Assembly: GCA_040881685.1 (NCBI GenBank) | Contig: JBBECS010000036.1 | Location: 1 to 64,000 of the forward strand | Source: Acidimicrobiia bacterium | GTDB lineage: Bacteria; Actinomycetota; Acidimicrobiia; IMCC26256; PALSA-555 | Direction of reading: 5' to 3' | DNA length: 64,000 bases | Part shown: one piece after another, positions 23,840-64,000 of the stretch | Layout of the letters: each line of letters begins with the position of its first letter | Numbering within the stretch: the stretch's first letter is position 1 | The notes under the pieces: model-generated | Database searches by the model: none | What the model was told of the DNA's origin: nothing | Seen by the model: the letters and a program-made list of their open reading frames with translations, nothing else | Translations under genes and position numbers: made by a program

Positions 23840-23859
23840 CGTCAACACTGGCGTTGACG
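23840..23859. promoter_or_regulatory. Palindromic operator, site 1 of 4
   Basis: CGTCAAC, six bases, GTTGACG: perfect 7-bp arms. It lies in the 92-bp divergent region between the hydratase-mutase operon (start 23822) and the amidohydrolase (start 23915). The same 20-bp pattern occurs at 37418, 62446 and 63847. It probably binds a dimeric TetR/GntR-type repressor. Confidence 0.7.
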
Positions 23860-23914
23860 ATACCAGCGGGCCTCGCGACACGGCAATGCTTCGGCCACAT
23901 CGGGGGATTGGTCC

Positions 23915-25072
23915 ATGGCGAAGGAGACGAAGCGGAGTCCTGGCCGGACGGCCGGGAGGCCGGAGCGGAGTCGACCCGTGCAGAAGGAACGGATCATCTC
24001 AGCCGACTCGCATGTGACGATCCGTGACGCCGCGGTCCTCGAGCACCTTCCCGCGAAGCACCACGACGCGTACCGCGCCGGCAAGCTCGCTGCACTGCGC
24101 AAGTTCGTCGGTGATGAGGCCGAGAAGATGATCGAGTCCGACCAGCTCGGGCTCGACGACGACGAAGAGCAGCACCGCTGGGAGTCGGCCGGCCGCCCCG
24201 GCGCGTTCGACCCGCACGCACGCCTCGTCGATATGGACACCGACCAGGTCGACGCCGAGATCCTGTACACGGATTCGTGGGCGGGTGCCGCGTTCTACGA
24301 GATGCCCAATGGTGGTTGGCTCGCCGGCTTCCAAGCGTTCAACTCGGCGGCCATCGACTTCGCCTCGGTCGATCCCGAGCGCCTGCTTCCCGTGTACATC
24401 ATCCCGATCGCCGACATCGACGAGGCGGTGAAGGAGGTGCAGCGTGTCGCCAACGAGGGTGCCCGCGCCGCGCACCTGCCGCTGTACCCGATGGACCTCG
24501 GGTTTCCCGGCTATTGGGACGAGACCTACGACCCGCTGTGGTCGGTGCTTTCCGAGGTGGGCATGCCGGTGAGCCAGCACGTGGCGAGCAACGCGTACCT
24601 CGCCACGTTGCGCGCCGCCGACCCCACGCCGATGCGGGGCGTGATGCACGCGCTGCCCAACATCTTCATGGCCGAGTCGATCGGTTTCTGGATCGTCGCC
24701 GGCATCCTCGAGCGGTTCCCGAGGCTCAAGGTTGTGATGGTCGAGGCCGGCCTCGGTTGGCTCCCGTACTGGCTGGCGCGCCTTGACCGCATGATGACCA
24801 AGCACGGCTGGGACCACTTCGACATGTTGAAGGAGAAGCCGAGCGTCTACTGGCACCGCCAGATGGCCGCCACGTTCGAGGAGGACGAGCTCGGCATGGA
24901 GCTCCGCGAGCTCATCGGCGTCGAGAACATGATGTGGGCGACCGACTACCCGCACCCCGACAGCACCTGGCCGCACTCGCAGGACGTCATCCACACGCAC
25001 TTCGACGGCCTGCCACTCGACGAGACCCGCCTCATGATCGGCGGCAACGCCGCCCGCCTCTACAACCTCTAG
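23915..25072 (+). CDS. Amidohydrolase-2 family protein with repeat-derived N-terminus
   Basis: A 385-aa metal-dependent hydrolase/decarboxylase-like TIM barrel (ACMSD/amidohydrolase-2 type). Metal-site regions are IISADSHVT (about residues 26-34), a central His (MPVSQHVASN) and a late Asp (MWATDYPHPDSTWPHS). Related proteins in this window start within a few residues of SADSHV; this one carries about 22 extra residues (KETKRSPGRTAGRPERSRP) supplied by repeat copy B. An RBS-like GGGGGA precedes the ATG. It is divergent from the hydratase-mutase operon and shares the operator at 23840. Confidence 0.83.
   Translation: MAKETKRSPGRTAGRPERSRPVQKERIISADSHVTIRDAAVLEHLPAKHHDAYRAGKLAALRKFVGDEAEKMIESDQLGLDDDEEQHRWESAGRPGAFDPHARLVDMDTDQVDAEILYTDSWAGAAFYEMPNGGWLAGFQAFNSAAIDFASVDPERLLPVYIIPIADIDEAVKEVQRVANEGARAAHLPLYPMDLGFPGYWDETYDPLWSVLSEVGMPVSQHVASNAYLATLRAADPTPMRGVMHALPNIFMAESIGFWIVAGILERFPRLKVVMVEAGLGWLPYWLARLDRMMTKHGWDHFDMLKEKPSVYWHRQMAATFEEDELGMELRELIGVENMMWATDYPHPDSTWPHSQDVIHTHFDGLPLDETRLMIGGNAARLYNL
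23924..23977 (+). repeat. Type-2 palindromic repeat, copy B
   Basis: 54 bp, 50/54 identical to copy A by hand alignment, starting three codons after the ATG of the amidohydrolase and read in the same frame as in the mutase (TKRSPGRTAGR then RSRP). Copies A and B lie about 900 bp apart on opposite strands. Confidence 0.8.
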
Positions 25073-26031
25073 CGAAACTCGGGAATGACCTGTTGCGCGA
25101 ACAACGTCAGCGTCTCGTGCGACGGGTAATCCGACGGCCAGATCACGATCGCTCGGCACCCGGCGTCGACGTACCGCTGGATCCGGTCGCAGACCTGTTC
25201 GGGCGTGCCGACGAGGTTGGCGTCGCGCCAGTCGTCGGGCGCGCCGCCCCAGATGTCGAGCGAGCCCGCCTCTTCGATCGCGGCCGTCGACTCCCTCACC
25301 AGCGCGTCGTGCTGCCACGACTTGACGATGGTCTCGGGGTCGCGCCCGACGTCACGACAGTGCCGGGCGAGCACCTCGCACTTGTGGGCGAACTCCTCGG
25401 GGGTCCCACCGAAGTTGGAGCAGTCAGCCCGTTCGGCGACGATGCGCAGCGTGCGGCGCTCGCCGGCGCCGCCGATCCAGATCGGCGGGTGGGGCTGTTG
25501 GAGCGGCTTGGGGTCGCACTGCGCGCTGGCCACTCGGTAGTAGGCGCCGTCGTACGTGGCGTCGGCCTCCGTCCACATCGCCCGGACGACGTCGACAGCC
25601 TCGGCCAGCCGGTCGAGGCGCTCGCGGGCGGTGGGGAAGTCGTAGCCATACGCCCGCAGCTCGCGCTCGTCCCACCCGGCACCGAGACCGAAGTCAAGGC
25701 GGCCACCGCTGATCACGTCGAGCGTCGCCGCCATCTTGGCGACGAGCGCGGGGTGACGGACGAGGTTGCAGGCGACCATGTGCCCGAGTCGCACACGGTT
25801 GGTGTGTTGCGAGAGCGCACCGAGCGCGGCCCACGACTCGAACACGGTCTCGTGCGCAGGCTCGGGCACGTTGTGGAGGTGGTCGTACACCCACACCGAG
25901 TCGTAGCCCATCTCTTCGGCGCGCTGCGCGGCCGCAATGGTCGCCAGCCACTTGGTCTCGGGCAGGGGGATGTCTCGCAGCTCCATGCGCCGGCCGATGG
26001 GGAGGATCAGGCCGAACGACACCCCTGTCAC
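25069..26031 (-). CDS. LLM-class F420-dependent oxidoreductase
   Basis: A 320-aa luciferase-like TIM-barrel enzyme: SFGLILPIGRR, EEMGYDSVWVYDHLHNVPEP, TNRVRLGHMVACNLVRHPALVAKMAATLDVISGGRLDFGLGAGWDERELRAYG and PPIWIGGAGERRTLRIVAE are typical of the F420-binding group. GTG 26031 is preferred since it gives VTGVSFGLILP; an ATG at 26085 would add 18 residues encoded by GC-rich repeat-like DNA. It is convergent with the amidohydrolase, the two stops overlapping by 3 bp. Confidence 0.83.
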   Translation of the reverse strand: MTGVSFGLILPIGRRMELRDIPLPETKWLATIAAAQRAEEMGYDSVWVYDHLHNVPEPAHETVFESWAALGALSQHTNRVRLGHMVACNLVRHPALVAKMAATLDVISGGRLDFGLGAGWDERELRAYGYDFPTARERLDRLAEAVDVVRAMWTEADATYDGAYYRVASAQCDPKPLQQPHPPIWIGGAGERRTLRIVAERADCSNFGGTPEEFAHKCEVLARHCRDVGRDPETIVKSWQHDALVRESTAAIEEAGSLDIWGGAPDDWRDANLVGTPEQVCDRIQRYVDAGCRAIVIWPSDYPSHETLTLFAQQVIPEFR

Positions 26032-26093
26032 GGCGGACAACCTATTTCCCACTCTCGGCCCTTCGGGTCGGGCCGTTCGGGCCACGGCTGGCT

Positions 26094-26116
26094 GCGCCGC
26101 AGGGTACCTGCGGCGC
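26094..26116. repeat. GC-rich hairpin, type-1-like
   Basis: Perfect 10-bp inverted repeat GCGCCGCAGG / CCTGCGGCGC around GTA. It has the size and GGGTA core of the type-1 repeats but lacks the CAGCGAGCG tail. It lies between divergent genes, upstream of the acyl-CoA dehydrogenase at 26169. Confidence 0.6.
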
Positions 26117-26168
26117 CGACGCCCGCCTCTGGCTCGTGCACCGTCAAGCCGAGCTGAGGCACGCAGAG

Positions 26169-27443
26169 ATGTGGGACTTCTCGACCGAACCCGAATTCCA
26201 GGAGAAGCTCGACTGGATCGAACGGTTCATGGAGGACGAGGTCTATCCGCTCGAGACGCTTGACCTCACGCCAGACCAGCTCCTGCGCGCGACCGCGCCG
26301 CTCAAGCAGCAGGTGAAGGACGCCGGCCTGTGGGCGTGCCACCTCGACCCCGAGCTCGGCGGGCAGGGCTTCGGACAGATGAAGCTCGCGCTGATGAACG
26401 AGACCATCGGCCGTTCGCTGATCCTGGCCCCGCCGATCTTCGGCAGCCAGGCGCCCGACTCGGGCAATGCCGAGATCCTCGCCATCGCGGGCACTGATGA
26501 GCAGAAGGACCGCTGGCTCTGGCCGCTGCTCGACGGGAGTCTGCGCTCCTGTTACTCGATGACCGAGCCCGGTGCCGGCTCCGACCCCACGCTCCTCACC
26601 ACACGCGCGGTGCGCGACGGCGACGAGTGGGTGATCAACGGCCACAAGTGGTTCTCGTCGCGCGCGGCCAAGGCCGACATCATCATCGTCATGTGTGTGA
26701 CCGACCCCGAGCAGCCGCCGATCTCTCGAATGTCGATGTTCGTGGTGCCGGCCGACGCGCCGGGCGTCAACGTCGTACGCGAGGTGGGTGTGCTCGGCCT
26801 CGGCGAGGCACACCACGCCGAGGTCATCTACGACAACGTGCGGGTTCCCGCTGACCATCTGCTCGGCGATGAGGGTGGCGCGTTTGTGATCGCGCAGAAG
26901 CGACTTGGGCCCGGCCGCATCCATCACTGCATGCGCTGGCTCGGTCAAGGCCGTCGCGCGTTCGACATGCTCTGCGAGCGGGCACTCACCCGGGTCACGC
27001 ACGGCAGCGTGCTGTCGGAGAAGCAGACGATCCAGAACTGGATCGCCGACTCCTACGCGGAGATGCAGGCCGCTCGCCTCATGACCCTGCACGCCGCGTG
27101 GACGATCGATCAGCGCGGCACCTCGAAGGCTCGCACCGAGATCGCCGCCATCAAGTTCTTCGGAGCGAAGGTGCTCCACGACGTCATTGATCGGGCCATG
27201 CAGATCCATGGCTCGCTCGGCATGTCGAACGACCTGCCGCTCGAGACCATGTATCGACACGCGCGTGTCGCGCGCGTCGTCGATGGCCCCGACGAGGTCC
27301 ACCGCGTCACGGTCGCTCGGCGTGTGCTCAAGGGCTACAAGCCCCACGACGGCCTCTGGCCCCGTGAGCACATACCCACGAGACGCCAGGCTGCCCGGCA
27401 GAAGTTCGCAGCCCTCCTCGATGAAGCGACCAGCGATCTCTAG
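26169..27443 (+). CDS. Acyl-CoA dehydrogenase (ACAD11/LvaC-like)
   Basis: A 424-aa acyl-CoA dehydrogenase with the FAD loop CYSMTEPGAGSDPTLL (about residues 130-145), NGHKWFSSRAAKAD, VRVPADHLLG, IHGSLGMSNDLPLETMYRHARVARVVDGPDEVH and RRVLKGY. The C-terminal DGPDEVHR is typical of the long-chain/ACAD10-11 branch. Nine bp downstream is an APH-like kinase. In ACAD10/11 and bacterial LvaA/LvaC the two activities act together on 4-hydroxyacyl-CoAs (phosphorylation, then elimination). ATG 26169 (MWDFSTEP) is chosen; ATG 26136 is possible. Confidence 0.85.
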   Translation: MWDFSTEPEFQEKLDWIERFMEDEVYPLETLDLTPDQLLRATAPLKQQVKDAGLWACHLDPELGGQGFGQMKLALMNETIGRSLILAPPIFGSQAPDSGNAEILAIAGTDEQKDRWLWPLLDGSLRSCYSMTEPGAGSDPTLLTTRAVRDGDEWVINGHKWFSSRAAKADIIIVMCVTDPEQPPISRMSMFVVPADAPGVNVVREVGVLGLGEAHHAEVIYDNVRVPADHLLGDEGGAFVIAQKRLGPGRIHHCMRWLGQGRRAFDMLCERALTRVTHGSVLSEKQTIQNWIADSYAEMQAARLMTLHAAWTIDQRGTSKARTEIAAIKFFGAKVLHDVIDRAMQIHGSLGMSNDLPLETMYRHARVARVVDGPDEVHRVTVARRVLKGYKPHDGLWPREHIPTRRQAARQKFAALLDEATSDL

Positions 27444-27452
27444 TAGGGCGGA

Positions 27453-28496
27453 ATGACAGGCGAGCTCGTCGACCCGCTCCGGCTCGCGGCGTGGCTGGAC
27501 GAGCAGCTCCTGGACACTGGGGATGGGGAGCCGCTCGACGTGGAGCGAATCACCACCGGGGCGTCGAACGAGGTGTTCGTCGTACGGCGCGGTGGGGCCG
27601 AGTGGGTGCTCCGTCGGCCGTCACCGAACTCACCCGCTCCGCCCACGACGATGGGTCGTGAGTTCCTCGTGCTCTCGGCGCTGGAGGGCACGCCCGTGCC
27701 GCACCCGAAACCGCATGCGATGTGCAACGACGTCGAGGTGATCGGCGCGCCCTTCTATCTCATGGAGCGCGTGGACGGCTTCCCGGCGCGCATCCCCTTA
27801 CCGCCGCCGTTCGATGCCGACGTTGGTGAGCGCCACGGCATGGGGACCACGCTCGTGGACGCCCTCGCCGACCTCTCCCAGGTGGACTGGCGTGGCCGTG
27901 GCCTCGAGGAGTTCGGCCGCCCCGACGGATATCTCGATCGACAGGTCGACCGTTGGCTCGGCCAGCTTGAACGTGCCCGCAACCGAGACCTTCCCGCCGT
28001 CGACGGCGTTTCCACGTGGCTGCGGGAGCACACACCCGTGATGGGCGAGCCCGGGATCCTCCACGGAGACGTGCACTTCGGCAACGTGATGTTCCATCAC
28101 GGCGGGCCGGCGCGCATTGCCGCAATCGTCGACTGGGAGCAGTCCACGATCGGTGATCCGCTCGTCGACCTCGGGTGGCTGCTCGCGCTTTGGGACGAGT
28201 CAGGCGAAGAGCCGATTCGCGGCCTCTCCGAGATGCGCGTCACGCACGAGGTTGGGTTCCCCACCCGCGCCGAGCTCGCCGAGCGCTACGCCCGCGTGAC
28301 CAGCCGGGAGCTCGAGCACCTCGGTTGGTACGAGGTGCTCGCGCTGTTCAAGCTGGGGTGCGTGCTCGAAGGCGCGTACGCCCGATATGCGACAGGGGAG
28401 AGCACGAACCCGGCGCATGCCAGGCTGGAGCAGATGGTCCCGAGCCTGTTCCGCAGTGCGGCGGCCATCGTCGAGGGAGGCGGGAACCCGCGATGA
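27453..28496 (+). CDS. APH-family phosphotransferase next to acyl-CoA dehydrogenase
   Basis: A 347-aa kinase-fold protein of the aminoglycoside phosphotransferase family. Seen are the N-lobe (ITTGASNEVFVVRRGGAEWVLRRP), catalytic loop HGDVHFGNVMFH (Asp base and Asn) and metal-binding IVDWEQSTIGDPLVDLGWLLALW. Antibiotic resistance is unlikely: the adjacent acyl-CoA dehydrogenase points to the ACAD10/11-type kinases that phosphorylate 4-hydroxyacyl-CoA. An AGGGCGG stretch precedes the ATG. Its stop overlaps the VOC gene start (ATGA), so the three form one unit. Confidence 0.82.
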   Translation: MTGELVDPLRLAAWLDEQLLDTGDGEPLDVERITTGASNEVFVVRRGGAEWVLRRPSPNSPAPPTTMGREFLVLSALEGTPVPHPKPHAMCNDVEVIGAPFYLMERVDGFPARIPLPPPFDADVGERHGMGTTLVDALADLSQVDWRGRGLEEFGRPDGYLDRQVDRWLGQLERARNRDLPAVDGVSTWLREHTPVMGEPGILHGDVHFGNVMFHHGGPARIAAIVDWEQSTIGDPLVDLGWLLALWDESGEEPIRGLSEMRVTHEVGFPTRAELAERYARVTSRELEHLGWYEVLALFKLGCVLEGAYARYATGESTNPAHARLEQMVPSLFRSAAAIVEGGGNPR

Positions 28497-30057: not shown

Positions 30058-30071
30058 CGATCCCCCCTCGC

Positions 30072-30091
30072 GATCAACGCCGTGGTCGATG
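30072..30091. promoter_or_regulatory. Degenerate copy of the 20-bp palindromic operator
   Basis: GATCAAC, six bases, GTCGATG. Arms match the consensus at 12 of 14 positions with the correct 6-bp spacer. It is 14 bp upstream of the P450 start (30057, minus). It may be a weak site or coincidence. Confidence 0.3.
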
Positions 30092-31527: not shown

Positions 31528-32727
31528 TCAGACGACGCCGGACTCCCTGAGCTTCTCAAGATCCTCAGCGGTGACGCCAAGCAGGCCGCAGTAGATCTCT
31601 TCGTTGTGCGCGCCGATGTCGGGCCCGGTCCAACGCACGGAGCCCGGCGATGCAGACAGGCGCGGTACCGCGTTCGGCATCTTGACCGGGCCGAGATACG
31701 GGTCGTCGACGGTGATGATCGCGTCGCGGTCCTTGTAGGCGGGGGAGTCGACAATGTCGGCGGCGTCGTGGGCCATGGCGATCACTGCGCCGGCCTCCTC
31801 GAACGCGTCGAGCACTTCCTGTGCCGAGCGTGCCGCGATCCACTCGCCGACCGCGTCGAGTAGGGCTTGCATGTTCTCGGGCACGTTGCGCGACACGGGT
31901 GTGGCGAACCGTGGATCATCGGCGAGCTGCCCGCCGCCCACGAGCAACAGCATCCGACGGATGACGGTCTCGGCTGCCGCTGACATCGAGAGCCATTTGC
32001 CGTCGGCCGACTGGTAGACGTTGCCAACCATCAAGCCGAGCGGGAAGCGGTTCCCGGCGCGCTCGGTGACGACGCCGAGCTGGTCGTACGTGGGGATGTG
32101 CCACTCGATCATGCGGAACAGCGTCTCGAACAAGGCCAGGTCGACGATCTGCCCGGTGCCCGTGCGTTCGCGGTCGTGGAGCGCGGCCAGCACGCCGTAT
32201 GCACCCATCAGCGCCGTAGACGTGTCGCCGAGCGAGAAGCCGATGTGATTCGGCGGTCCCTGGGGAAAGCCAGACAGGTGCAGCGCACCACTCAATGCCT
32301 CGGATGGGCGTCCGAACATCGGCTTGGGGTTCGACGCGGCGCTCTGCTGCCCGTAGCCGCTGATGCGGAGCATGATCAGGCGCGGGTTCTCGGCGTGCAG
32401 CCGCTCCCACCCGATGTTCCAGCGCTCCATCGTTCCTGGACGGAAGTTCTCGACGAGCACGTCGGCGTCGCGCGCCAGGCGCATCAACAGCTCCTGACCC
32501 TCTGGCGTGCGCAAGTCGAGAGTGATGCAGCGCTTGTTCCGGCCGGCCACCGTCCACCACAGAGGGCGGTCGTCCTTCCGCGGTCCGAGCCGGCGCAGCC
32601 CGTCGCCCTCCGGCGGCTCGATCTTGATCACGTCGGCGCCCAGGTCGCCGAGGAGCGTGGCGGCGAACGGCCCGGCGAGCACGTGACCCACGTCGATGAC
32701 GCGCAGGTCGTCGAGCGCCTCGCTCAT
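31528..32727 (-). CDS. CaiB/BaiF family CoA-transferase
   Basis: A 399-aa class III CoA-transferase: LRVIDVGHVLAGPFAATLLGDLGADVIKIEPPEGDGLR at the N-terminus, NKRCITLDLRTPEGQELLMRLARDADVLVENFRPG, and QIVDLALFETLFRM with the catalytic Asp. It moves CoA between acyl groups, usually activating a carboxylate with succinyl-CoA or similar. It is the last gene of the six-gene minus-strand operon, and its ATG overlaps the CitE-like stop (ATGA). Confidence 0.87.
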   Translation of the reverse strand: MSEALDDLRVIDVGHVLAGPFAATLLGDLGADVIKIEPPEGDGLRRLGPRKDDRPLWWTVAGRNKRCITLDLRTPEGQELLMRLARDADVLVENFRPGTMERWNIGWERLHAENPRLIMLRISGYGQQSAASNPKPMFGRPSEALSGALHLSGFPQGPPNHIGFSLGDTSTALMGAYGVLAALHDRERTGTGQIVDLALFETLFRMIEWHIPTYDQLGVVTERAGNRFPLGLMVGNVYQSADGKWLSMSAAAETVIRRMLLLVGGGQLADDPRFATPVSRNVPENMQALLDAVGEWIAARSAQEVLDAFEEAGAVIAMAHDAADIVDSPAYKDRDAIITVDDPYLGPVKMPNAVPRLSASPGSVRWTGPDIGAHNEEIYCGLLGVTAEDLEKLRESGVV

Positions 32728-33683
32728 GTGTCCTCCTGCATTGCCTCGCTCGCTGCGGTCGGGGATACCCCGCCCGCGGGCGCTCGCTCGGTCGGCGCGG
32801 AGTGCGCGTGGCGAGTCAGGAGGTCGCGGGCGACGCGCACCATCGCCGCGTCGACCATCTGGCCCTCGTGATCGAGGGCGCCCATGCCGTCCCGCGCCGC
32901 GCCGTCCCACGCCTCGAGGAGACGCTTGGCTGCCGCCACATCGTCGGGCGTTGCGCCGAACACTTCGTTGACGATCTCAACGTGTGATGGGTGGATGACC
33001 ATCATCCCTTCGTAGCCGATGGCTCGTGATTGCCGGGCGAACGCCTCGACCTCGTCGAGCTCTCGAAGGTTGGTCACGACGCCGGTCATCGGGTTGGGGA
33101 CACCAGCCGCCCGCATGTCGACGAGGATCTCCGAACGCAGGTACAGCGTCTCCAGGAACAGCGGTGGCGTCCAGCCGAAGCCGAGCGCATGGGCCAAGTC
33201 ACCGTTCAGCGCCGCGGCTCCACCCATGTACGCCACCCGGGGAGACGACGACGCCAGGTCGAAGGCGCGGCGAGCGGCCGCCGCATTCTCCACGCTTGGC
33301 CACACGCGCACCGAGCCGCTGGGGAGTCCGGCCCGACGTTCGCGCTTGTCGAGACCTTTGGCCACGCGCTGCACCTCGGCGGGCTCGGTCACTTTGGGCA
33401 CCATCACGGCGACGAGACCCTGCTGCACGATGGCGTCGAGATCGGCATCGAGGCAGCTCTCGGAGAGCGCGTTGATGCGGACGCAGACGGCGGGCGCTGC
33501 ATCACCGGCACCGAGCCACTCCGCCACGACGGCGCGGGCGTCACCACGCTCGGTCGCGGGCACGGAGTCCTCGAGGTCGAGGATGACCGCGTCTGCGCCC
33601 GATGCAACCGCTCGCTCGCGGAAGTCGCGTCGATGTCCGGGGACGAACAGCGCGGAGCGGATCCGCGGTGGCGCCGCGCTCAT
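32724..33683 (-). CDS. HpcH/HpaI-CitE-like C-C lyase with repeat-derived tail
   Basis: A 319-aa TIM-barrel lyase of the citrate-lyase-beta/malyl-CoA lyase family: RSALFVPGHRRDFRERAVASGADAVILDLEDSVP (Asp and metal-binding Glu region), VWPSVENAAAARRAF, YMGGAAALNGDLAHALG and GMMVIHPSHVEIVNEVF. It cleaves or forms a beta-hydroxy- or beta-methylmalyl-type CoA. The last about 20 residues (TERAPAGGVSPTAASEAMQ) are encoded by a type-1 palindromic repeat and are not family sequence. The start overlaps the amidohydrolase stop and the stop overlaps the CaiB start (both ATGA). Confidence 0.85.
   Translation of the reverse strand: MSAAPPRIRSALFVPGHRRDFRERAVASGADAVILDLEDSVPATERGDARAVVAEWLGAGDAAPAVCVRINALSESCLDADLDAIVQQGLVAVMVPKVTEPAEVQRVAKGLDKRERRAGLPSGSVRVWPSVENAAAARRAFDLASSSPRVAYMGGAAALNGDLAHALGFGWTPPLFLETLYLRSEILVDMRAAGVPNPMTGVVTNLRELDEVEAFARQSRAIGYEGMMVIHPSHVEIVNEVFGATPDDVAAAKRLLEAWDGAARDGMGALDHEGQMVDAAMVRVARDLLTRHAHSAPTERAPAGGVSPTAASEAMQEDT
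32755..32777 (-). repeat. Type-1 palindromic repeat, copy 3
   Basis: On the minus strand GCGGGCGGGG, TAT, CCCCGACCGC (9 of 10 pairs), followed by AGCGAGCGAGGC. It lies in frame inside the 3' end of the CitE-like gene, in the third reading frame relative to copies 1 and 2. Confidence 0.7.
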
Positions 33684-34783
33684 CGCGACTCGCCGAGGCG
33701 ATACAGGTGGCGGGCGTTCCCGGCCAGGATCAGGTCGCGCTCGTCCTCGGGCACACCCGAGAAGTCGGCGTTGATCGTGCGCCAGGAGTTCGGCCAGTCC
33801 GCGCCCACGTGCGGGTAGTCGCTCGACCACATCATCCGGTCGGGCCCGATGTCGGCCCGGTTGCGCACCGCGAAATGATCCGTGATGTACGTGTACGAGA
33901 AGTTGCGGTCCATGTACTCACTCGGCGGCATCGTGAGCTTGAGGCCCGAGCCTCGGCCCAGCCGGTGGTAGCGGTCGTCGATCTGCTCCTTGAAGTACGG
34001 GATCCAGCCGCAATCCACTTCCGCGAGTACCACTTGGAGCTCGGGGAAGCGGTCGAGCACGCCGGAGAAGATGAGCTGGAGGATGCGCTGCGGCACGTCG
34101 TAAAAGCGCACGTCGCCCGGCAGCTTCGTCTTGTGTGACGTGGGCATGCCGGCCACGAGCGTGACGTGGATGGACAGCGGGACGCCGGCGTCGACCGCAA
34201 GGCTCCACAGCGCGTCGTCTTCGGGCTCGATGTCGAGTCCCCCATGCGGGTATCGGCTGAGGAGCCCCCCGACGATCCCGGGGTTGACGACGGCCCGTTC
34301 GAGCTCGCCGACGGCGTCGGCCACGCCGCTGTTCGGGATCATCGCGAGCCCGCATAGGCGGTTGGGCGCGTGACCGCAGTACTCGGCGAGCCAGTCGTTG
34401 TACGCGCGCACCATCGCGAGGTGGTACTCGGCGTCTTCGTTGGCGGCAATGGCCCACGAGAGACGGGGGGTGGGGTAAAGGATCTCGGCGTCGACGAAGT
34501 CACGGTCCTGCTCCGCGAGTCGCCCGGCCGGGTTGTGCGCGCCCTCCCGCACGTCCTCCCACTTGATCCATGGCCGCATCGCGTCGGGATCCATGCCAGC
34601 TGAGGCGTTGAGCCCGAAGTTGATCGGATCCTCGACCCCTTCGATGACCCACGCGTCGCCCTCGGCGAACCGCTCCATGCGCGGCGCTCGGTCGCGCAAC
34701 TTCGCCGGTACCCGTGAGGTGTAGAGGTCGGGTGGCTCGAGCACGTGGCTGTCAGCCGAGATGAGCCGGTACTGGTGCTCCAT
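33680..34783 (-). CDS. Amidohydrolase-2 family protein
   Basis: A 367-aa ACMSD-like metal-dependent hydrolase or decarboxylase. The N-terminus is LISADSHVLEPPDLYTSRVP, a central His lies in GVPLSIHVTLVAG, and a late Asp in MMWSSDYPHVGADWPNSW. It is closely related in layout to the protein at 23915 but has no N-terminal extension: its ATG overlaps the stop of a mini-ORF made from the same type-2 repeat (TGATG). It belongs to an operon of SDR, DUF35, aldolase, amidohydrolase, lyase and CoA-transferase. Confidence 0.85.
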   Translation of the reverse strand: MEHQYRLISADSHVLEPPDLYTSRVPAKLRDRAPRMERFAEGDAWVIEGVEDPINFGLNASAGMDPDAMRPWIKWEDVREGAHNPAGRLAEQDRDFVDAEILYPTPRLSWAIAANEDAEYHLAMVRAYNDWLAEYCGHAPNRLCGLAMIPNSGVADAVGELERAVVNPGIVGGLLSRYPHGGLDIEPEDDALWSLAVDAGVPLSIHVTLVAGMPTSHKTKLPGDVRFYDVPQRILQLIFSGVLDRFPELQVVLAEVDCGWIPYFKEQIDDRYHRLGRGSGLKLTMPPSEYMDRNFSYTYITDHFAVRNRADIGPDRMMWSSDYPHVGADWPNSWRTINADFSGVPEDERDLILAGNARHLYRLGESR

Positions 34784-34845
34784 CAGTTCGGGTCGATTCC
34801 GTTACGGCGTCCCGGCCTCCGGCCACGCCTCCACTGCATCTCCAT
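34783..34845 (-). CDS. Bridging mini-ORF 4 (20 codons) between aldolase and amidohydrolase
   Basis: The frame MEMQWRRGRRPGRRNGIDPN starts by TGATG overlap with the aldolase stop and ends by TGATG overlap with the amidohydrolase start, so it fits the gap to the base at both ends. It consists almost entirely of type-2 repeat copy C. Very basic; not recognised. Confidence 0.45.
   Translation of the reverse strand: MEMQWRRGRRPGRRNGIDPN
34790..34842 (-). repeat. Type-2 palindromic repeat, copy C
   Basis: 53 bp on the minus strand, GAGATGCAGTGGAGG through GGAATCGACCC, aligning to copies A and B with about nine substitutions and a one-base deletion (hand alignment). The deletion changes the frame relative to A and B, and the frame closes exactly at the downstream start. 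Confidence 0.65.
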
Positions 34846-36053
34846 CAGGGCGTGCCTCTCGTGAGCAGCATGCACCCGGCCACCGGCCCGCCACCGTTGG
34901 CGACCACGGCAGTCTGCGGCGCGTCGAGCTGGCGATCACCGCTGTCACCGCGGAGCTGGAGGCAGGCCTCGTGCAGAAGGCCGAAGCCGTGGAGTCGGCC
35001 GGCCGAGAGCTGACCGCCGCAGGTGTTCAGCGGGACATCACCGTCGCGTGCGATGCGCTTGCCACCTTCGACGAACTCGCCGCCGGTGCCTGGTTCGCAG
35101 AAGCCGAGCGCCTCGAGCCAGGCCAGCGCCAGAAAGCTGAAGCCGTCGTAGAGCTGGGCGAGGTCGACGTCCGCCGTCGTCAGGTCGGAGCGAGACCACA
35201 GGTGCGCGGCCGCGTCGCGCGCCGCCATCGTGGTGAGGTCATCGAACTGGTCCCACGACGGGCGACCGCGCATCGCAGTGCCCACGGCGTGCACGTGAGC
35301 CGCCGGGCGGCGCGCGTCGGGCGCCGCATCGACGTGCGAGACGACGACTGCCGTTGCACCGTCGACCGGCAGGTCGCAGTCGAACAAGCACAGCGGCGTA
35401 CTGATCATGCGAGCGCCGAGGTACTCGTCCAGCGAGAGCGGCTCGCGGAACACTGCCCTTGGGTTGTCTGCCGCGTTGGCTCGGTCGGTCAGTGCGATCT
35501 GCGCAAGCTGCTCGCGGGTGGTGCCGTACCGGTCGAAGTGAGCCTGGGTGTAGAGCGCGAGCAGGTTGGCGCTCGAACCAGCACCGAACGGGATCGACCA
35601 TTGCCGGTACCCGTCGACTCGCGCGTTGCCGAGACCAGCCGCATGCGCTACCTCGGCGCGAGACCCCGAGCCCTGCTGACTCGACTCGGTGACCGTCCTC
35701 CAGACGACGACGTGGCGCGCCAGCCCGGATGCGATCGCTAGGCACGCGGCGACCACGGCGCCCAACGGCGCCGGACCCTCGGCGCCGCCGTGGCTCCATC
35801 CCAGCTCGAGGCGGAGCGCATCTTGCACATCGCGCACGCCGGCGCTCGCGTACCGGCCCGCGTCACGAGCATTGAGGGCGCCGCCGGGGAACGTGGCCAG
35901 ACCGTCGATGTCGGCGCGGGCGAGGCCGGCGTCCTCGATCGCGGCGAGCACCGCTTCGAGCGTGAGGTCGAGGTTCGTCCGCTCGAGGTTCCGGCCAATC
36001 GCGGACTGGCCCAGACCCGTGATTGCCGAACGCCGCTCGAGGATCTCAGTCAT
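34845..36053 (-). CDS. Ltp2-like acyl-CoA aldolase/thiolase-fold protein 3
   Basis: A 402-aa SCP-x/thiolase superfamily protein. The nucleophile region reads SHGGAEGPAPLGAVVAACLAIASG without the CxxG Cys, and the C-terminal loop is PLNTCGGQLSAGRLHGFGLLHE, as in the two other Ltp2-like proteins of this window. Its DUF35 partner is encoded just upstream (36202-36612) with a coupled mini-ORF between. By analogy it performs a retro-aldol or related C-C cleavage on a CoA ester. Confidence 0.8.
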   Translation of the reverse strand: MTEILERRSAITGLGQSAIGRNLERTNLDLTLEAVLAAIEDAGLARADIDGLATFPGGALNARDAGRYASAGVRDVQDALRLELGWSHGGAEGPAPLGAVVAACLAIASGLARHVVVWRTVTESSQQGSGSRAEVAHAAGLGNARVDGYRQWSIPFGAGSSANLLALYTQAHFDRYGTTREQLAQIALTDRANAADNPRAVFREPLSLDEYLGARMISTPLCLFDCDLPVDGATAVVVSHVDAAPDARRPAAHVHAVGTAMRGRPSWDQFDDLTTMAARDAAAHLWSRSDLTTADVDLAQLYDGFSFLALAWLEALGFCEPGTGGEFVEGGKRIARDGDVPLNTCGGQLSAGRLHGFGLLHEACLQLRGDSGDRQLDAPQTAVVANGGGPVAGCMLLTRGTP

Positions 36054-36205
36054 CGCTTCCGCTCTCGGCGCTTCGCGCCTCCATGGATCGTCGTCGCAAG
36101 CGACGACTCGGTGCTCCGGCGGTCGGCGGAGCCGCCGCCTGCGCGGGGCCGCTCCGGCCCCGCTCGCTGCGGGCCGGGGTACCCGACCCGCGGACGCGCG
36201 CTCAT
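36050..36205 (-). CDS. Bridging mini-ORF 5 (51 codons) between DUF35 and aldolase genes
   Basis: The ATG overlaps the DUF35 stop and the TGA overlaps the aldolase ATG (ATGA at both ends). The N-terminal part, with the core GYPGPQRAGPERP, matches mini-ORF 3 at 3854-3943, encoded by the same two-hairpin repeat in the same frame and position. The C-terminal half (SADRRSTESSLATTIHGGAK and RRERKR) is different and also ends in an Arg-rich run, as mini-ORF 3 does. No family is recognised. Confidence 0.5.
   Translation of the reverse strand: MSARPRVGYPGPQRAGPERPRAGGGSADRRSTESSLATTIHGGAKRRERKR
36143..36191 (-). repeat. Type-1 palindromic repeat, copy 4 (double hairpin)
   Basis: Two adjacent inverted repeats: GCGGGGCCG / CGGCCCCGC around CTC (36143-36163) and a 10-bp arm pair with one mismatch around the TAC core (36169-36191). 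Read on the minus strand from 36205, ATGAGCG...GGGTACCCCGG..CCGCAGCGAGCGGGGCC matches 3854-3907 in order and spacing. Confidence 0.75.
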
Positions 36206-36612
36206 GTGGCCGGCTCGAAGAGTGGGAACCACACGTCGTCCACTTGCTCGAAGCAGACCTGGACAGCCATGCCGCCGGCGACCGCGCCCGCCTCGACGTT
36301 CACGAGGTTCGTGGTCAGCCGGAGCCCCGGCTGCTCGACGAGCTCGACGATCGCGATCACGTACGGCGGGTCCATCAAGCCCCAGTCCTGATGGTTCACC
36401 GTGAAAGTCGCGACCGTGCCGCGGCCGGTCACTGGTTCTGGTGCGACGGAGCGCGATGCGCACTGCGGACACACCGGCGCCGGCGGGTGCACGTACGAGT
36501 AGCAGTCGCCACAACGCAGGAAGCGCAACCGCCCGTCGACACCGGATGTCCAGAAGAACTCGGTCTCGGGCGTGAGCGCGGGGAGCGGGCGCGTCGGTGC
36601 GTCGGTGCTCAT
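36202..36612 (-). CDS. DUF35 zinc-ribbon/OB-fold protein, aldolase partner 3
   Basis: A 136-aa DUF35 protein with zinc ribbon CGDCYSYVHPPAPVCPQCAS (about residues 34-53) and OB fold (GRGTVATFTVNH, GLRLTTNLVNV). It is the probable partner of the aldolase at 34845-36053. It starts inside the SDR stop (ATGA, 36609-36612), and its own stop overlaps mini-ORF 5. Confidence 0.86.
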   Translation of the reverse strand: MSTDAPTRPLPALTPETEFFWTSGVDGRLRFLRCGDCYSYVHPPAPVCPQCASRSVAPEPVTGRGTVATFTVNHQDWGLMDPPYVIAIVELVEQPGLRLTTNLVNVEAGAVAGGMAVQVCFEQVDDVWFPLFEPAT

Positions 36613-37391
36613 GCTGGCATGCAGAGGCCGGCATCGACGCAGAGCACCTGGCCGGTGATCATCGACGCGTCGTCACTGGCAAAGAACACCGCCGCGCCGG
36701 TGAGGTCTTCGGGCTCCAAGGTGCGGTGCAACGCCGCCTTGCGCCGTAGCTCTTCGATGCGCGCCGGCTCGAGGTCGGCCTTCATCGCGTCGGTGAGTAC
36801 GGGGCCGGGGGAAATGCAGTTCACGGTGATCCCGTACTGGCCGAGCTGCACCGCGAGGAACTTCGTGAGCCCGACGATGCCCCACTTCGTCTGGTTGTAC
36901 CCGAAGGAGTTGAGACCTTCATACACGGGTGCTTCGAACCGGTCGGGCGCGTAGATGTACGCCGCGTCCGACGCCTGCATGATCACGCGGCCGCGGGCTT
37001 GCTCGACCATCGGGACCGCGGCGGCGCGCGTCATGAGCCACGCGCCGTGCAGGTTCACGTCGAACACCTTCTTCAGGTAGGCGAGGCTGTGGTCGGTCTT
37101 GTCGAGATCGCCGAAGAGGGCCGCGTTGTTGAGCAGCACGTCCACGGTGCCGAAGCGCTCGACGCTCTGGCGCACGCACGCCGCCGCCGACTCCTCGTCG
37201 GCCACGTCGGTGGGCACGAAGATGGCTTCGCCACGGCTCGAGAGCTCCTCGAGGGTCGCCTCACCGTCCTCCTTGTTGAGGTCGGCGATCACCACGTGAG
37301 CGCCCTCGTCGAGGAGCCGGGTCGCGTAGGCCTTGCCGATGCCACGCCCCGCGCCGGTGACGATGGCGACCTTGCCCTGCAGCCGCACCAA
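36609..37391 (-). CDS. Short-chain dehydrogenase/reductase
   Basis: A 260-aa SDR and first gene of the operon: RLQGKVAIVTGAGRGIGKAYA, Asp after beta-2 (IADLNKEDG, NAD-preferring), LNNAALFG, QASDAAYIYAP with a Ser/Asp active-site loop, and FGYNQTKWGIVGL (YxxxK). The C-terminus is GQVLCVDAGLCMPA. It likely oxidises a hydroxyacyl intermediate before cleavage by the aldolase. The ATG is 26 bp from palindromic operator site 2. Confidence 0.84.
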   Translation of the reverse strand: MVRLQGKVAIVTGAGRGIGKAYATRLLDEGAHVVIADLNKEDGEATLEELSSRGEAIFVPTDVADEESAAACVRQSVERFGTVDVLLNNAALFGDLDKTDHSLAYLKKVFDVNLHGAWLMTRAAAVPMVEQARGRVIMQASDAAYIYAPDRFEAPVYEGLNSFGYNQTKWGIVGLTKFLAVQLGQYGITVNCISPGPVLTDAMKADLEPARIEELRRKAALHRTLEPEDLTGAAVFFASDDASMITGQVLCVDAGLCMPA

Positions 37392-37417: not shown

Positions 37418-37437
37418 CGTCAACACCCGCGTTGACG
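37418..37437. promoter_or_regulatory. Palindromic operator, site 2 of 4
   Basis: CGTCAAC, six bases, GTTGACG: same arms as site 1 (23840). It is the only notable element between the VOC gene stop (37450) and the SDR start (37391), hence in the promoter of the six-gene operon. Confidence 0.7.
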
Positions 37438-57430: not shown

Positions 57431-57436
57431 GATGCC

Positions 57437-58906: not shown

Positions 58907-58935
58907 GGCGATGACCTCGCCGTACGCTTGCCGAC

Positions 58936-59145: not shown

Positions 59146-59152
59146 CTCGGCT

Positions 59153-59311
59153 TCAGCCCGGCGGGGGAACGAGCTCACGAACTTCCGCGTAGCGCTCGGG
59201 CGCACCGGGTTCACCAGCGGTGAACTGCGCCGCGTCGTCGCCAGACTCGAACGGTCCGACGATCTTGTCCGGCGAGGTGTGCGCCGGACCACACATGACG
59301 ACGTAAGGCAT
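59153..59311 (-). CDS. Small hypothetical protein
   Basis: A 52-aa frame MPYVVMCGPAHTSPDKIVGP... with a compact hydrophobic start and acidic/Ala-rich end (GDDAAQFTAGEPGAPERYAEV). A plausible small cytosolic protein; a longer frame exists upstream without appeal. Low certainty. Confidence 0.4.
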   Translation of the reverse strand: MPYVVMCGPAHTSPDKIVGPFESGDDAAQFTAGEPGAPERYAEVRELVPPPG

Positions 59312-59330
59312 TCGCTCACGATACCGAGCC

Positions 59331-59759: not shown

Positions 59760-59773
59760 GGGACCAGGATCGC

Positions 59774-61030
59774 TCAGACGCGTGCAGCAATGCCGAAGAG
59801 TGCCGCCGCGTTACCGCCCATGAGCGCGTCGGCGGTCTTCTGGTCGATGCCGTTCCCTCCGAGCATCGACCTTGCTTCGGCGGACGTCGACGTGTCGTGG
59901 TTGGGATACCGGGAGCCGAACGCGGCCTTGGCGGCGATCTCGTCGACGAGGCGTGCGACGGGCGTCTCCCAGGCATCGAACGACAGCAACAGCGGGTGCT
60001 CGGCGATCACGTCTTCAGGTTCGAGGCTGACCGGATTCTCGGGCGGGTTGAGCACGCCCGGGATCGAGAGCCACAAGTAGGTCTCGGCCTTCTCGAGCAC
60101 CAACGGCAGCCACGACGCGCCGGAGTGGAGGAGCGCCAGCTTGAGGGTTGGCATGTCCTCCAACAGGCCGGTGAACAGCGTGGCCGTGAGAAACGTCGCG
60201 TTGTCCTGGAACAGCGCAGTGGGCTCGGCGACCGTGTGGCCGATGCCGAGGCGAGCGGACACGCGCTCGACGAACGAACCGGCTGACGTCGGCTCCGGGT
60301 TCGTGATTCCGAGCGACGGGTGCACGCAGGCCACGAGGCCGAGCGAGTCGAGCTGGCGCCACAGCGGCAGGAAGTGCGCGTCGGTCACGAACACACCGCC
60401 GGTGGGGTGGTCATACGCCATGAACGCCGATCCGCCGGCCGAGCCGTTCATGCTGGCGTTCGGCTCGCGGGCGTAGAACATCGGACGGATCGACACCGAG
60501 CGGAAGCCGCGCTCGGCAGCTCGGTCGAGCTCTCGGCGCGCCAGCAGCACGCTCTGGAGCGGCAACACCGCCGCCGGATGCAGACGGTTGGGCGCGGCCT
60601 GGGCGAAGTCCCACACCCAGTCGTTGTACGCACGGGCGAGCACCGCCGCGACGTCGGGGTTGGCGACGAGCGGGAGGTGCTCGGCAAACAACGTGGGGTG
60701 CAAGACGGCCTGGTCGACGCCCATGGCGTCCATGTCGTGCAGCCGCATCTCGGCGTCCCATGCGCCTGCGTTCGGGTCATGGAACACGTTGGGGTCGAGG
60801 CCGCCGATGTCACTCGGCGTCGTGCCTGGATACCAGATCGCCTCTCGGATGAGTCGGGATCGACCGAGCTCTTGCACCGGTGCGCCATTGCGGATCGTGA
60901 GGCGATGGCCGTCGTCGTCGAAGCCGTGCCACAGCGCGGCACGCGCCGCGGCTTGGTACTCCTTGGGGACGTAGTCCTCCCAGAGGAACTCGGGTTCGTA
61001 GACGTGGGAGTCGATATCGACGACGGTCAT
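59774..61030 (-). CDS. Amidohydrolase-2 family protein (second of a pair)
   Basis: A 418-aa ACMSD-like metal-dependent enzyme: VVDIDSHVYEPEFLWEDYVP, central His in VACVHPSLGITNPEP, HSGASWLPLVLEKAETY, and a late segment LLSFDAWETPVARL, where the usual SSDYPH is modified. ATG 61030 overlaps the upstream gene's stop (ATGA). Together with the protein at 61027 it forms an amidohydrolase pair under operator site 3; the two may act on successive intermediates or form a complex. Confidence 0.82.
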   Translation of the reverse strand: MTVVDIDSHVYEPEFLWEDYVPKEYQAAARAALWHGFDDDGHRLTIRNGAPVQELGRSRLIREAIWYPGTTPSDIGGLDPNVFHDPNAGAWDAEMRLHDMDAMGVDQAVLHPTLFAEHLPLVANPDVAAVLARAYNDWVWDFAQAAPNRLHPAAVLPLQSVLLARRELDRAAERGFRSVSIRPMFYAREPNASMNGSAGGSAFMAYDHPTGGVFVTDAHFLPLWRQLDSLGLVACVHPSLGITNPEPTSAGSFVERVSARLGIGHTVAEPTALFQDNATFLTATLFTGLLEDMPTLKLALLHSGASWLPLVLEKAETYLWLSIPGVLNPPENPVSLEPEDVIAEHPLLLSFDAWETPVARLVDEIAAKAAFGSRYPNHDTSTSAEARSMLGGNGIDQKTADALMGGNAAALFGIAARV

Positions 61031-62412
61031 GTCGTCAGCTCGGTGCGGCGCGCGTGTGCCTGCTGCTCGGCCCACTCGTCAAGCTCGGGACCGCCGGGGA
61101 ACCAGTCGGGCCGCTTGATCGGCGCGGGCTCGTCCTTCACGAACACCCTGGCGTCGATGTTGTACATCCGGCGGGCGTTGCCGCCGAGCAGCTTCGCCTG
61201 CACCTCGTCGGGCACACCGATCTCGCGCATGGCGCGGATGGCGCTCCACGAATCGGCGCCGTCGTGGTGATAGCAGTCCGACGCCCAGATCCCGATCTCC
61301 TCGAACGTGTCCCACTGACGCATCGTCTGCGTCTCGTCGGACTCGAACGAGATGACGCACTGCTCGTGGAACGCCTCCGACGGCAGGCGCTTCGCCTCCC
61401 ACTTCCGCTCGTTGGCGTACAGCTGGAACAGCCGATCGCAGTGCGCGAGGAACGGCACCAGCCACTGCGAGTTTGACTCGAACACCGCCATCCTCAATCC
61501 GGGATAGCGGTCGAGGAACCCACACAACAGCACCTGTGCGAGCCACACCTGGATCTCGAAGATGAAGGAGAGCGTCTGGCTGTCGGCACCCGCGTAGGCC
61601 ACGAGCTCACCGGGCGACGCGAGCAAACCAGGTCCTGCCGTCGACGGCGGATGGTGCGCGGGGAATGTGTGCATGCCGAGCACGACGCCGGTCGCCTCGA
61701 ACGTGCGGAACAGGTTGTCGAGCGTGACCGGCGGCGTGCCGCCGATGCCGAAGCCCGCCGTGTCGAGTCCGAGGTCGTTGGGGTAGCAGCCGGCCGCGTC
61801 GAACGGGCGCATGAGCGCGACCGGGAAGCCACGGTCGGCCACCCGAAGCAGCTCGGTCACGGCGTGCTCGGGGCTTTGGAGGGGGAGGAGCGCGGCGGGG
61901 TAGAGGCGGCGCTTGTTGTGAGAGCACCAGTCGCGGGCGAAGTCGTTGTACGCGCGGCAGAACACGTCGACGCCCGCCACGTTCTCGGCGAACGGCAGGT
62001 TCTGGATCACCTTCGTTGGGATCACCAGCACCTGGTCGATGCCCATGAGGTCGAGGTCGCGCACTCTGGCCTTCGGGTCGGTGGCACCCTTGTGCTCGAG
62101 GTAGTCGCGCTGCTCGGCGGTGAGCGGCACCATGGACGCGAGCCGGCGCACGATCTTCTTATTCATTTGCGGACCGGCGATGCAGATCGGGTTGTACATG
62201 CCCGCCGGCGCGTACTCGCCATTCCCTCCGCCGCTGGCCCTCTCGCCGTTGAGCCAGGCCTGCTCGTTCGTCTTCCAGTACGTGGCCCGCACCAGCTCGC
62301 GCTGGGACTTGGGGACGTAGTCCCAGATCTTCAGGGGGTCGTTGATGTGGGCGTCGCAGTCGAAGACGGCGAAGTCCTTGGTCACCCGCTCCGGCGCAGC
62401 CCCCGATTTCAT
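61027..62412 (-). CDS. Amidohydrolase-2 family protein (first of a pair)
   Basis: A 461-aa member: VFDCDAHINDPLKIWDYVP, central GVVLGMHTFPAHHPP (His), FESNSQWLVPFLAHCDRLF and IWASDCYHHDGADSW (late Asp). It is larger than its relatives in this window because of an insert in the first third (WLNGERASGGGNGEYAPAGM). It is the first gene of the two-gene unit, and its ATG 62412 lies 33 bp from operator site 3. Confidence 0.83.
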   Translation of the reverse strand: MKSGAAPERVTKDFAVFDCDAHINDPLKIWDYVPKSQRELVRATYWKTNEQAWLNGERASGGGNGEYAPAGMYNPICIAGPQMNKKIVRRLASMVPLTAEQRDYLEHKGATDPKARVRDLDLMGIDQVLVIPTKVIQNLPFAENVAGVDVFCRAYNDFARDWCSHNKRRLYPAALLPLQSPEHAVTELLRVADRGFPVALMRPFDAAGCYPNDLGLDTAGFGIGGTPPVTLDNLFRTFEATGVVLGMHTFPAHHPPSTAGPGLLASPGELVAYAGADSQTLSFIFEIQVWLAQVLLCGFLDRYPGLRMAVFESNSQWLVPFLAHCDRLFQLYANERKWEAKRLPSEAFHEQCVISFESDETQTMRQWDTFEEIGIWASDCYHHDGADSWSAIRAMREIGVPDEVQAKLLGGNARRMYNIDARVFVKDEPAPIKRPDWFPGGPELDEWAEQQAHARRTELTT

Positions 62413-62445
62413 GCGGTTCTCATGGTCCCACGGTCGTCGACAATT

Positions 62446-62465
62446 CATCAACGTTCGCGTTGACG
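62446..62465. promoter_or_regulatory. Palindromic operator, site 3 of 4
   Basis: CATCAAC, six bases, GTTGACG. Arms match sites 1 and 2 except one A for G. It lies directly upstream of the amidohydrolase pair, in the 181-bp divergent region shared with the DUF222-HNH gene. Confidence 0.65.
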
Positions 62466-62475
62466 CCAGGCCCCG

Positions 62476-62493
62476 AGATTTCTTGAGAAATCT
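62476..62493. promoter_or_regulatory. AT-rich inverted repeat in divergent region
   Basis: AGATTTCT, TG, AGAAATCT: perfect 8-bp arms. It stands out as an AT-rich block in GC-rich DNA, between operator site 3 and the LexA-type promoter. It may be a further operator or a short hairpin. Confidence 0.45.
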
Positions 62494-62503
62494 GCCCCTG
62501 GGC

Positions 62504-62533
62504 TTGACAAGGCGAACATATGTTCGCTATCGT
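62504..62533 (+). promoter_or_regulatory. Sigma-70-type promoter of the DUF222-HNH gene
   Basis: TTGACA at 62504-62509 and TATCGT at 62528-62533 with an 18-bp spacer. The -35 hexamer is perfect, and the LexA-type box occupies the spacer. The start codon is 61 bp further on behind GAGGAGGG. Confidence 0.65.
62512..62527 (+). promoter_or_regulatory. LexA/SOS box
   Basis: GCGAACATATGTTCGC, a perfect palindrome containing the actinobacterial LexA core CGAAC-N4-GTTCG. It sits in the spacer between -35 and -10, where LexA would block polymerase. Predicts that the downstream nuclease gene is induced by DNA damage. Confidence 0.7.
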
Positions 62534-62593
62534 GTCGACGACAACTTCCCCCATCGGCCCCACCCAGGTGGGCCGTCCCGGAGGAGGGAAGTC

Positions 62594-64000
62594 GTGTCCA
62601 CGAGAGTCCGCCAGGCGATCGAGCTGCTCCTCGCCGAGCTGGCCGACGTCGACCCCTCCTGTGTCGACGGATCTCGCGCCCGAGAGCTCATGGAGGACTT
62701 CGCAGAGGTCCAGCACCTCGGGGGTGCCGGGGTCACGATCATGGCGCGACGGGTGGAAGCGGCGGGCGCGTTCGATCTAGCCAAGCACCGCAGCGCGGCG
62801 CATTACCTTGCCAAGGTCACCGGCACGACGGTCTTTGCTGCCGAGCAGCAGATCCGCACCGCGCGTCAGCTCGAAGACCTGCCGGCCACCCACGCTGCAT
62901 TGCGCGCTGGCCGGCTCTCGGGTGTGCAGGTCAAGGAGGTCGCCGCCGCGGCCGCCGCGGATCCGTCGGCGGAGCCGATGATGCTCCGATGTGCGCAGAT
63001 CGACGGAATCAAGGGCCTCAAGGCCGAGGGTGCCCGCGTGATCGCGGCCGCGGCCCGCGATGCCGACAAGCAGTACGAGCGGATTCATCGCGAGCGGACG
63101 TTCCGGCACTGGAGCGACTATCACGGCTCCGGCCGCATCGATGTGCGCGGCCCACTCGACCTCACCACCCGCGTCGCGCTGGCCCTCGTGCCGTATGAGC
63201 ACGAGCTGTTCGAGGCCGCCCGCAAGAACGACGAGCGCGAGCGCGCCGACGCGCTGATGTTTGACGCGCTGGTGGCCATGGCCGACGCGTCAACCGGAGA
63301 GATGCCCAAGGGCACGGGGCCGATGCCGACCATCGCGGTCCGGATCGACCACCGAGCGTTCGTGACCGGTGACACATTGCCCGGCGAGGTGTGTGAGATC
63401 GCCGGCGTCGGCCCGATCCCGGTGAGCGTGGCGCAGCGCCTCGCGGAAGACGCGTTCCTCAAAGCGCTCGTCACCAATGGTGTCGACGTGCTCGCGGTCT
63501 CGCATCTCGGCCGCACGATCCCCGCACACCTGCGTACCGCGCTCGAGGAGCTCTACCCCGAGTGTGCGATCGCCGGCTGCAACGCCAGCTACGGCCTCGA
63601 GATCGACCACAACCAACCGGTCGAGGTAGGCGGACTGACCGAGCGCCGCAACCTCAACAAGCTCTGTCGCTACCACCACACGTACAAGCACCGCCACAAG
63701 CTGCGCCTGGTCGGCGAAGGCACCAACAAGAGGTTCTTGTCCGCCGCCGAGTGGCTGCCGCCCGATCGACCACCCGACTGCCCAGGTGGCCGACAACCAC
63801 AGGGGCAGCCGCCCCGGGCGCCGGGCTCTCGTGGCCGCATGATGCTCATCAACGCGAACGTTGATGCTTGGGTCATGCCGCCCGTAGGCTGCCACGGCCG
63901 TCCGCCCAGGGGAGCCATGGTCAAGCAGCAGCGCGCCACCGAAGCCGATGCGCCGGTCGCGGCCGACTCTCCGGCGACCTGTGCAACGAACGGTGCGATC
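62594..64000 (+). CDS. DUF222/HNH endonuclease family protein (runs off the window)
   Basis: The frame from GTG 62594 (RBS GAGGAGGG at 62581) has no stop before the window end, 469 codons. It begins TRVRQAIELLLAELADVD, has the DUF222 helical region (FDLAKHRSAAHYLAKVTGTTVFAAEQQIRTARQLEDL) and a C-terminal HNH motif: CAIAGCNASYGLEIDHNQPVEVGG, then NLNKLCRYHHTYKHRH (zinc Cys, HNH His/Asn/His). DUF222-HNH proteins are common multi-copy actinobacterial genes. Homology appears to end near codon 400 (about 63790), after which the frame runs through operator site 4 and a new RBS/ATG at 63917. Confidence 0.84.
   Translation, partial: MSTRVRQAIELLLAELADVDPSCVDGSRARELMEDFAEVQHLGGAGVTIMARRVEAAGAFDLAKHRSAAHYLAKVTGTTVFAAEQQIRTARQLEDLPATHAALRAGRLSGVQVKEVAAAAAADPSAEPMMLRCAQIDGIKGLKAEGARVIAAAARDADKQYERIHRERTFRHWSDYHGSGRIDVRGPLDLTTRVALALVPYEHELFEAARKNDERERADALMFDALVAMADASTGEMPKGTGPMPTIAVRIDHRAFVTGDTLPGEVCEIAGVGPIPVSVAQRLAEDAFLKALVTNGVDVLAVSHLGRTIPAHLRTALEELYPECAIAGCNASYGLEIDHNQPVEVGGLTERRNLNKLCRYHHTYKHRHKLRLVGEGTNKRFLSAAEWLPPDRPPDCPGGRQPQGQPPRAPGSRGRMMLINANVDAWVMPPVGCHGRPPRGAMVKQQRATEADAPVAADSPATCATNGAI
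63847..63866. promoter_or_regulatory. Palindromic operator, site 4 of 4
   Basis: CATCAAC, six bases, GTTGATG: perfect arms, same spacing as sites 1-3. It lies inside the open end of the HNH frame and 50 bp before a candidate start at 63917 with a good RBS. It probably belongs to the gene beginning there. Confidence 0.55.
63917..64000 (+). CDS. Candidate start of the next gene (partial, cut by window end)
   Basis: ATG 63917 follows AGGGGAG at 63908-63914 and begins MVKQQRATEADAPVAADS. It is in the same frame as the DUF222-HNH ORF, so it could be read either as a new gene or as the tail of the HNH protein. The RBS and the operator site 50 bp upstream favour a new gene, perhaps a regulator or an enzyme of the same regulon. 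Too little is visible to name it. Confidence 0.4.
   Translation, partial: MVKQQRATEADAPVAADSPATCATNGAI

Follow-up and report, generated by a model that had tools for sequence, protein, structure and literature searches.

The locus raises a simple question: why does the same 20-bp palindrome, CRTCAAC-N6-GTTGAYG, stand in front of several scattered catabolic units in an Acidimicrobiia genome, and which regulator would read it? The window, that is, the whole stretch of 64,000 nucleotides analysed here, has the same numbering as contig C36 of this genome (G000). An initial annotation of the window, read by eye, had proposed that one dimeric, perhaps TetR-like repressor links all the amidohydrolase units into one regulon.

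In the window, the pattern scan showed exact matches only at 23840, 37418, 62446 and 63847, as read by eye. The genome-wide scan that the initial annotation had suggested found these same four and no further exact match in 3.11 Mb. Base composition predicts 0.0004 exact matches per window and 0.02 per genome, so the matches do not occur at a background rate, and the reversed control pattern had 0 matches in the whole genome. The half-sites TCAAC and GTTGA formed 4 pairs at a spacing of 6 in the window; among the other spacings scanned (0 to 15), single matches were found at 5, 11, 12 and 13 and none elsewhere. All four sites were located 18–61 bp 5′ of a start codon: 18 bp for the hydratase (23822), approximately 30 bp for the SDR dehydrogenase (37388), 61 bp for the amidohydrolase (62385) and 51 bp for the cupin (63917), whose operon includes a TetR gene. 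The four sites are real and lie far above chance. The sites and the genes behind them are listed in Table 1.

Table 1. Operator sites, genes behind them and possible promoter; positions with the prefix C36 lie outside the window.
Feature	Position	Strand	Remarks
Site 1	23840-23859		Between divergent hydratase-mutase unit (-) and amidohydrolase (+); exact; 27.1 bits
Site 2	37418-37437		Upstream of six-gene operon (-); exact; 21.9 bits
Site 3	62446-62465		Upstream of amidohydrolase pair (-); exact; 23.1 bits
Site 4	63847-63866		Upstream of cupin-hydratase-TetR operon (+); exact; 22.9 bits
Enoyl-CoA hydratase/isomerase	22911-23822	-	First gene behind site 1; PF00378 3.8e-55
Acyl-CoA mutase large subunit, methylmalonyl-CoA mutase superfamily	21368-22966	-	PF01642 1.5e-121
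B12-binding small subunit	20961-21287	-	PF02310 1.6e-14; the real start is probably farther 5′
Amidohydrolase, other side of site 1	23978-25072	+	PF04909 1.8e-23
SDR dehydrogenase	36609-37388	-	First gene behind site 2; PF13561 3e-56
DUF35/ChsH2-type OB-fold partner	36202-36612	-	PF01796, PF12172
Thiolase-like lipid-transfer protein (aldolase partner)	34845-36053	-	PF22691 1.6e-32
Amidohydrolase, site 2 operon	33680-34783	-	PF04909 3e-30
CitE/HpcH-like lyase	32724-33683	-	PF03328 1.7e-31
Family III CoA-transferase	31528-32727	-	PF02515 2.3e-111
Amidohydrolase	61027-62385	-	First gene behind site 3; PF04909 6.8e-13
Amidohydrolase	59774-61030	-	Second gene behind site 3; PF04909 2.2e-14
Cupin gene start	63917-64000	+	First gene behind site 4; continues outside window to C36:64717
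Enoyl-CoA hydratase	C36:64734-65639	+	PF00378 1.5e-31
TetR gene, candidate repressor of all four sites	C36:65639-66301	+	PF00440 2.4e-11, PF17932 8.3e-29
Possible promoter, cupin-hydratase-TetR operon	63861-63890	+	TTGATG-N18-TAGGCT, read from sequence

Several weaker candidates were rejected. The initial annotation had counted a fifth site at 30072; the 12/14 match is present there, but it is not supported as an operator, having 6.9 bits (background) against 21.9–27.1 for the true sites, and its counterpart in G003 (Acidimicrobiia bacterium Baikal-deep-G33, of the same genus) is not palindromic. Six copies of the core TCAAC-N6-GTTGA were counted genome-wide: the four window sites, C2:71463 and C48:10031. 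The C2 candidate (matrix position C2:71461, downstream of a clpC-like gene and before an ORF without a Pfam family) had 18.9 bits, which is not far above the whole-genome chance range, and is unsupported. C48:10031 falls within an ORF predicted to be coding, in a cluster of ribosomal-protein genes. A candidate in G003 (C83:2280) is located within an AMP-ligase gene, and G000 has no conserved counterpart of it.

The Pfam families agree with the names first given to the acyl-CoA mutase, DUF35-aldolase, CitE-like lyase and CoA-transferase. The claim that all amidohydrolase units stand behind a site holds for the four in the window and fails genome-wide, where 37 Amidohydro_2 genes were found. For a genome of 3.1 Mb, this number appears to be a large expansion. 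The four units would form one pathway. The best solved relative of the mutase is the 2-hydroxyisobutyryl-CoA mutase 4r3u. The window mutase carries Leu at the position of Tyr89/Ile90 and Lys at that of Asp117, and Asn replaces the catalytic His244 of methylmalonyl-CoA mutase. To judge from its sequence, the large subunit (21368-22966) probably has a new substrate specificity.

The genome has 17 TetR_N genes, and the one at C36:65639-66301 is the sole one near the sites. It begins 1.8 kb downstream of site 4, just beyond the window edge, in an operon in which cupin, hydratase and TetR genes all lie on the + strand with intergenic gaps of at most 17 bp. The cupin was annotated by PF07883 (4e-7) on an overlapping ORF, and its start codon is common to the G003 gene. 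The palindrome, more fully CRTCAAC-RYNNRY-GTTGAYG, is very probably the operator of the TetR repressor from this operon (C36:63917-66301), which would control all four units. The single dimeric TetR-like repressor first proposed is thus strongly supported by sequence comparison, with a TetR gene behind site 4, its co-conservation in G003 and a linkage between TetR clade and palindrome across phyla.

A DUF222 gene (62594 onwards) is flanked by sites 3 and 4. It is of the kind related to 13E12 repeat proteins; the DUF222 family includes repeat-associated proteins. In G000 its ORF of 707 aa extends past site 4 and on into the cupin gene, to C36:64717, and in G003 the frame ends a few bases before site 4. 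Upstream of this gene lies GCGAACATATGTTCGC (62512-62527), which resembles a mycobacterial LexA/SOS box, and a similar box is present in G003. The flanking of the DUF222 gene, together with the 19/20 identity between reversed site 3 and site 4, would suit chance or an unrelated repeat such as a hairpin, mobile-element end or recombination site. The probability of such an origin is negligible: 0.02 exact copies are expected per genome, no DUF222-type element lies at sites 1 and 2, the arms are kept while the spacers vary among species, and the TetR linkage across phyla already contradicts it. An inverted-repeat mobile element or hairpin in particular is ruled out by sites 1 and 2 and the cross-genome data.

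Among 149 relatives, a close TetR orthologue (89% identical) and four exact sites were each found only in G003; the other genomes had 0 or 1 exact site, and one genome had 2. Three of the four G003 sites are homologues of sites 1, 3 and 4, so that the palindrome is conserved at homologous positions. Site 1 was kept with its flanks (C28:5405), site 3 was kept with diverged flanks (C83:7231) and site 4 was kept at C83:8624. The spacers changed at all three sites while the arms were kept, and the flanks changed at sites 3 and 4. The site 2 homologue falls beyond the G003 comparison, as the contig ends inside the operon and the assembly has no close SDR orthologue. Within the genus and family, only G000 and G003 were found to have the mutase gene and the amidohydrolase gene behind site 3, and both genes are missing from the congeners that lack the TetR.

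Site 2 has a counterpart in a congener, G001, where a 55-bp block from operator to start codon is 82% identical (C4:124869; L181:3369). Compared with the window, to which it is collinear, G001 lacks 21 kb between the genes at 15.9 and 37.4 kb but retains a remnant with the operator and promoter of site 2. By sequence comparison, G001 probably lost the whole segment in one piece. A further core palindrome of G003 (C70:37421; L180:3421) is located 30 bp before another amidohydrolase gene, adjoins a divergent transporter-type solute-binding protein gene and is kept in a second congener, G002.

No TetR orthologue was found in G001 (96% complete) or G002 (80% complete), and a perfect core persists in both, in the site 2 promoter remnant of G001 and before the amidohydrolase of G002. 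These palindromes are the main loose end of the analysis and may reflect a TetR gene lost recently, gaps in the assemblies or the presence of another regulator. They also favour the idea that a different regulator binds the palindrome and that the TetR is a bystander by operon context. We consider this idea improbable, since distant-phyla loci picked by TetR sequence alone carry the palindrome and control TetR loci do not.

The distant comparison used 80 loci from public genomes, which were chosen by TetR alignment (seeded with two TetR peptides) with the operator DNA unused. They span Mycobacterium, other Actinomycetota, sphingomonads and other Pseudomonadota. TCAAC-N6-GTTGA was observed 125 times in these loci against 0.46 expected, with 0–8 occurrences for each of the other spacers from 0 to 14. 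In an extended set, 107 of 131 sites had a gene start no more than 350 bp downstream, compared with 31% of random positions. A matrix was built from 117 sites of the distant loci, leaving out G000, G003 and nearly all Mycobacterium-type loci. Over 120 kb, it recovered exactly the four window sites at 21.9–27.1 bits, with the next match at 9.5 bits and hence a 12-bit gap; the maximum in simulated sequence of the same length was 14.9 bits.

A site of at least 15 bits within 1.5 kb of the gene was found for 55 of the 80 clade TetRs versus 0 of 24 other TetRs. Among the 25 clade members without a strong site within this distance, the G003 locus itself has sites just past 1.5 kb, and several others have them further off. 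The tree placed 59/59 site-bearing TetRs in one clade (support 99/94). The Mycobacterium orthologues have overlapping variants of the palindrome. In many relatives from Pseudomonadota, the first gene behind the site encodes a Baeyer-Villiger-like flavin monooxygenase, with hydratase, dehydrogenase and acyl-CoA ligase genes nearby.

The protein from C36:65639-66301 is most likely a TetR family member that works as such regulators do. The N-terminal TetR_N helix-turn-helix passed its cut-off (PF00440, 43.7 bits against 24), as did the C-terminal ligand-binding and dimerisation domain (PF17932, 100.6 bits against 26.4). The palindrome lies near the regulator's own gene and its targets, as is typical of the family: site 4 heads its own operon, and the association is kept in relatives. 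An AlphaFold model of the G003 protein (pLDDT 84, 26 sequences) predicted an all-helical C-terminal fold, as in 3dcf and KstR2. The structure search with this model gave 3dcf, KstR2, PfmR, FadR and AibR as nearest neighbours, and several of these folds were solved with acyl-CoA ligands. An acyl-CoA is the likely inducer, and we regard it as the most likely signal because the predicted fold is nearest to acyl-CoA-responsive repressors and because of the enzymes controlled.

The closest solved protein in both sequence and fold is 3dcf, a Thermobifida fusca TetR (E 1.4e-29), for which we know of no operator or function. KstR2 of Mycobacterium tuberculosis (PDB 4w97, 4w1u) is likewise a TetR repressor of a CoA-thioester catabolic regulon. 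It was the third-ranked structure match and a clear match by sequence (E 1.8e-16), at approximately 26% identity a distant relative, and its operator is probably another palindrome. FadR of Bacillus subtilis and PfmR/FadR of Thermus share the fold and are acyl-CoA-released repressors of acyl-CoA catabolism. FadR was also the best NCBIfam match (NF053878), but its 72.9 bits are below the equivalog cut-off of 200, and an assignment as FadR was rejected. AibR (5k7z, solved with isovaleryl-CoA and operator DNA) has the same fold and a small branched acyl-CoA ligand, at 22% identity.

For two other systems, the operators were compared. AtuR/RdmA of Pseudomonas is likewise of the TetR type and represses a gene cluster for the catabolism of terpenes or branched acyl compounds; its operator, AGCAAGCGCTTGG/CCAAGCGCTTGCT (PMC9973270), differs from the palindrome described here. 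SCO7222 of Streptomyces coelicolor adjoins a monooxygenase gene, as do many relatives of this TetR, and its operator TGGAACGNCGTTCCA (PMC3511530) is also different. A search of the open-access literature with several spellings of the motif found no published TetR with this operator.

We propose the following mechanism. The TetR dimer would bind site 4 and thereby regulate its own operon. Bound to sites 1–3, it would cover the promoters from which the hydratase-mutase unit, the divergent amidohydrolase, the SDR-to-CoA-transferase operon and the amidohydrolase pair are transcribed. A pathway intermediate, an acyl-CoA, would probably bind the C-terminal domain and release the repressor. We infer binding, repression and the acyl-CoA ligand alike. 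At site 4, the 3′ half of the palindrome, TTGATG, is the putative -35 element of the possible promoter, and both TTGATG and TAGGCT are identical in G003. If this arm is the -35 element, the bound TetR would block the promoter. The same TetR might instead act at these sites as an activator or dual regulator; in favour of this, site 3 showed no clear -10/-35 pair. This is unlikely, given that the site 4 operator covers the possible -35 of the regulator's own operon and that its structural neighbours KstR2 and FadR are ligand-released repressors.

The analysis turns a palindrome read by eye into a concrete predicted regulator-operator pair and defines the enzymes that would be regulated together, in a lineage for which metagenome assemblies are the main source of knowledge. 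With this motif, one may locate, in several phyla, the operons controlled by a TetR clade that appears to be uncharacterised, and ask what their inducing compound is. We tentatively speculate that TCAAC-N6-GTTGA is an undescribed TetR-operator module that was kept or passed among Acidimicrobiia, other Actinomycetota and Pseudomonadota as the enzymes under its control were exchanged: clusters with Baeyer-Villiger-like monooxygenases in many cases, and amidohydrolase and mutase clusters here. The inducers would all belong to one class of acyl-CoA. In this genus, the pathway that the module controls might be a new one that includes an atypical B12-dependent acyl-CoA mutase.

In SAR92/Porticoccaceae (L133, L139, L142), the TetR clade occurs in a cluster with up to five sites, and the genes of this cluster encode a TonB receptor, PQQ alcohol dehydrogenase, aldehyde dehydrogenase, flavin monooxygenase and beta-oxidation enzymes.
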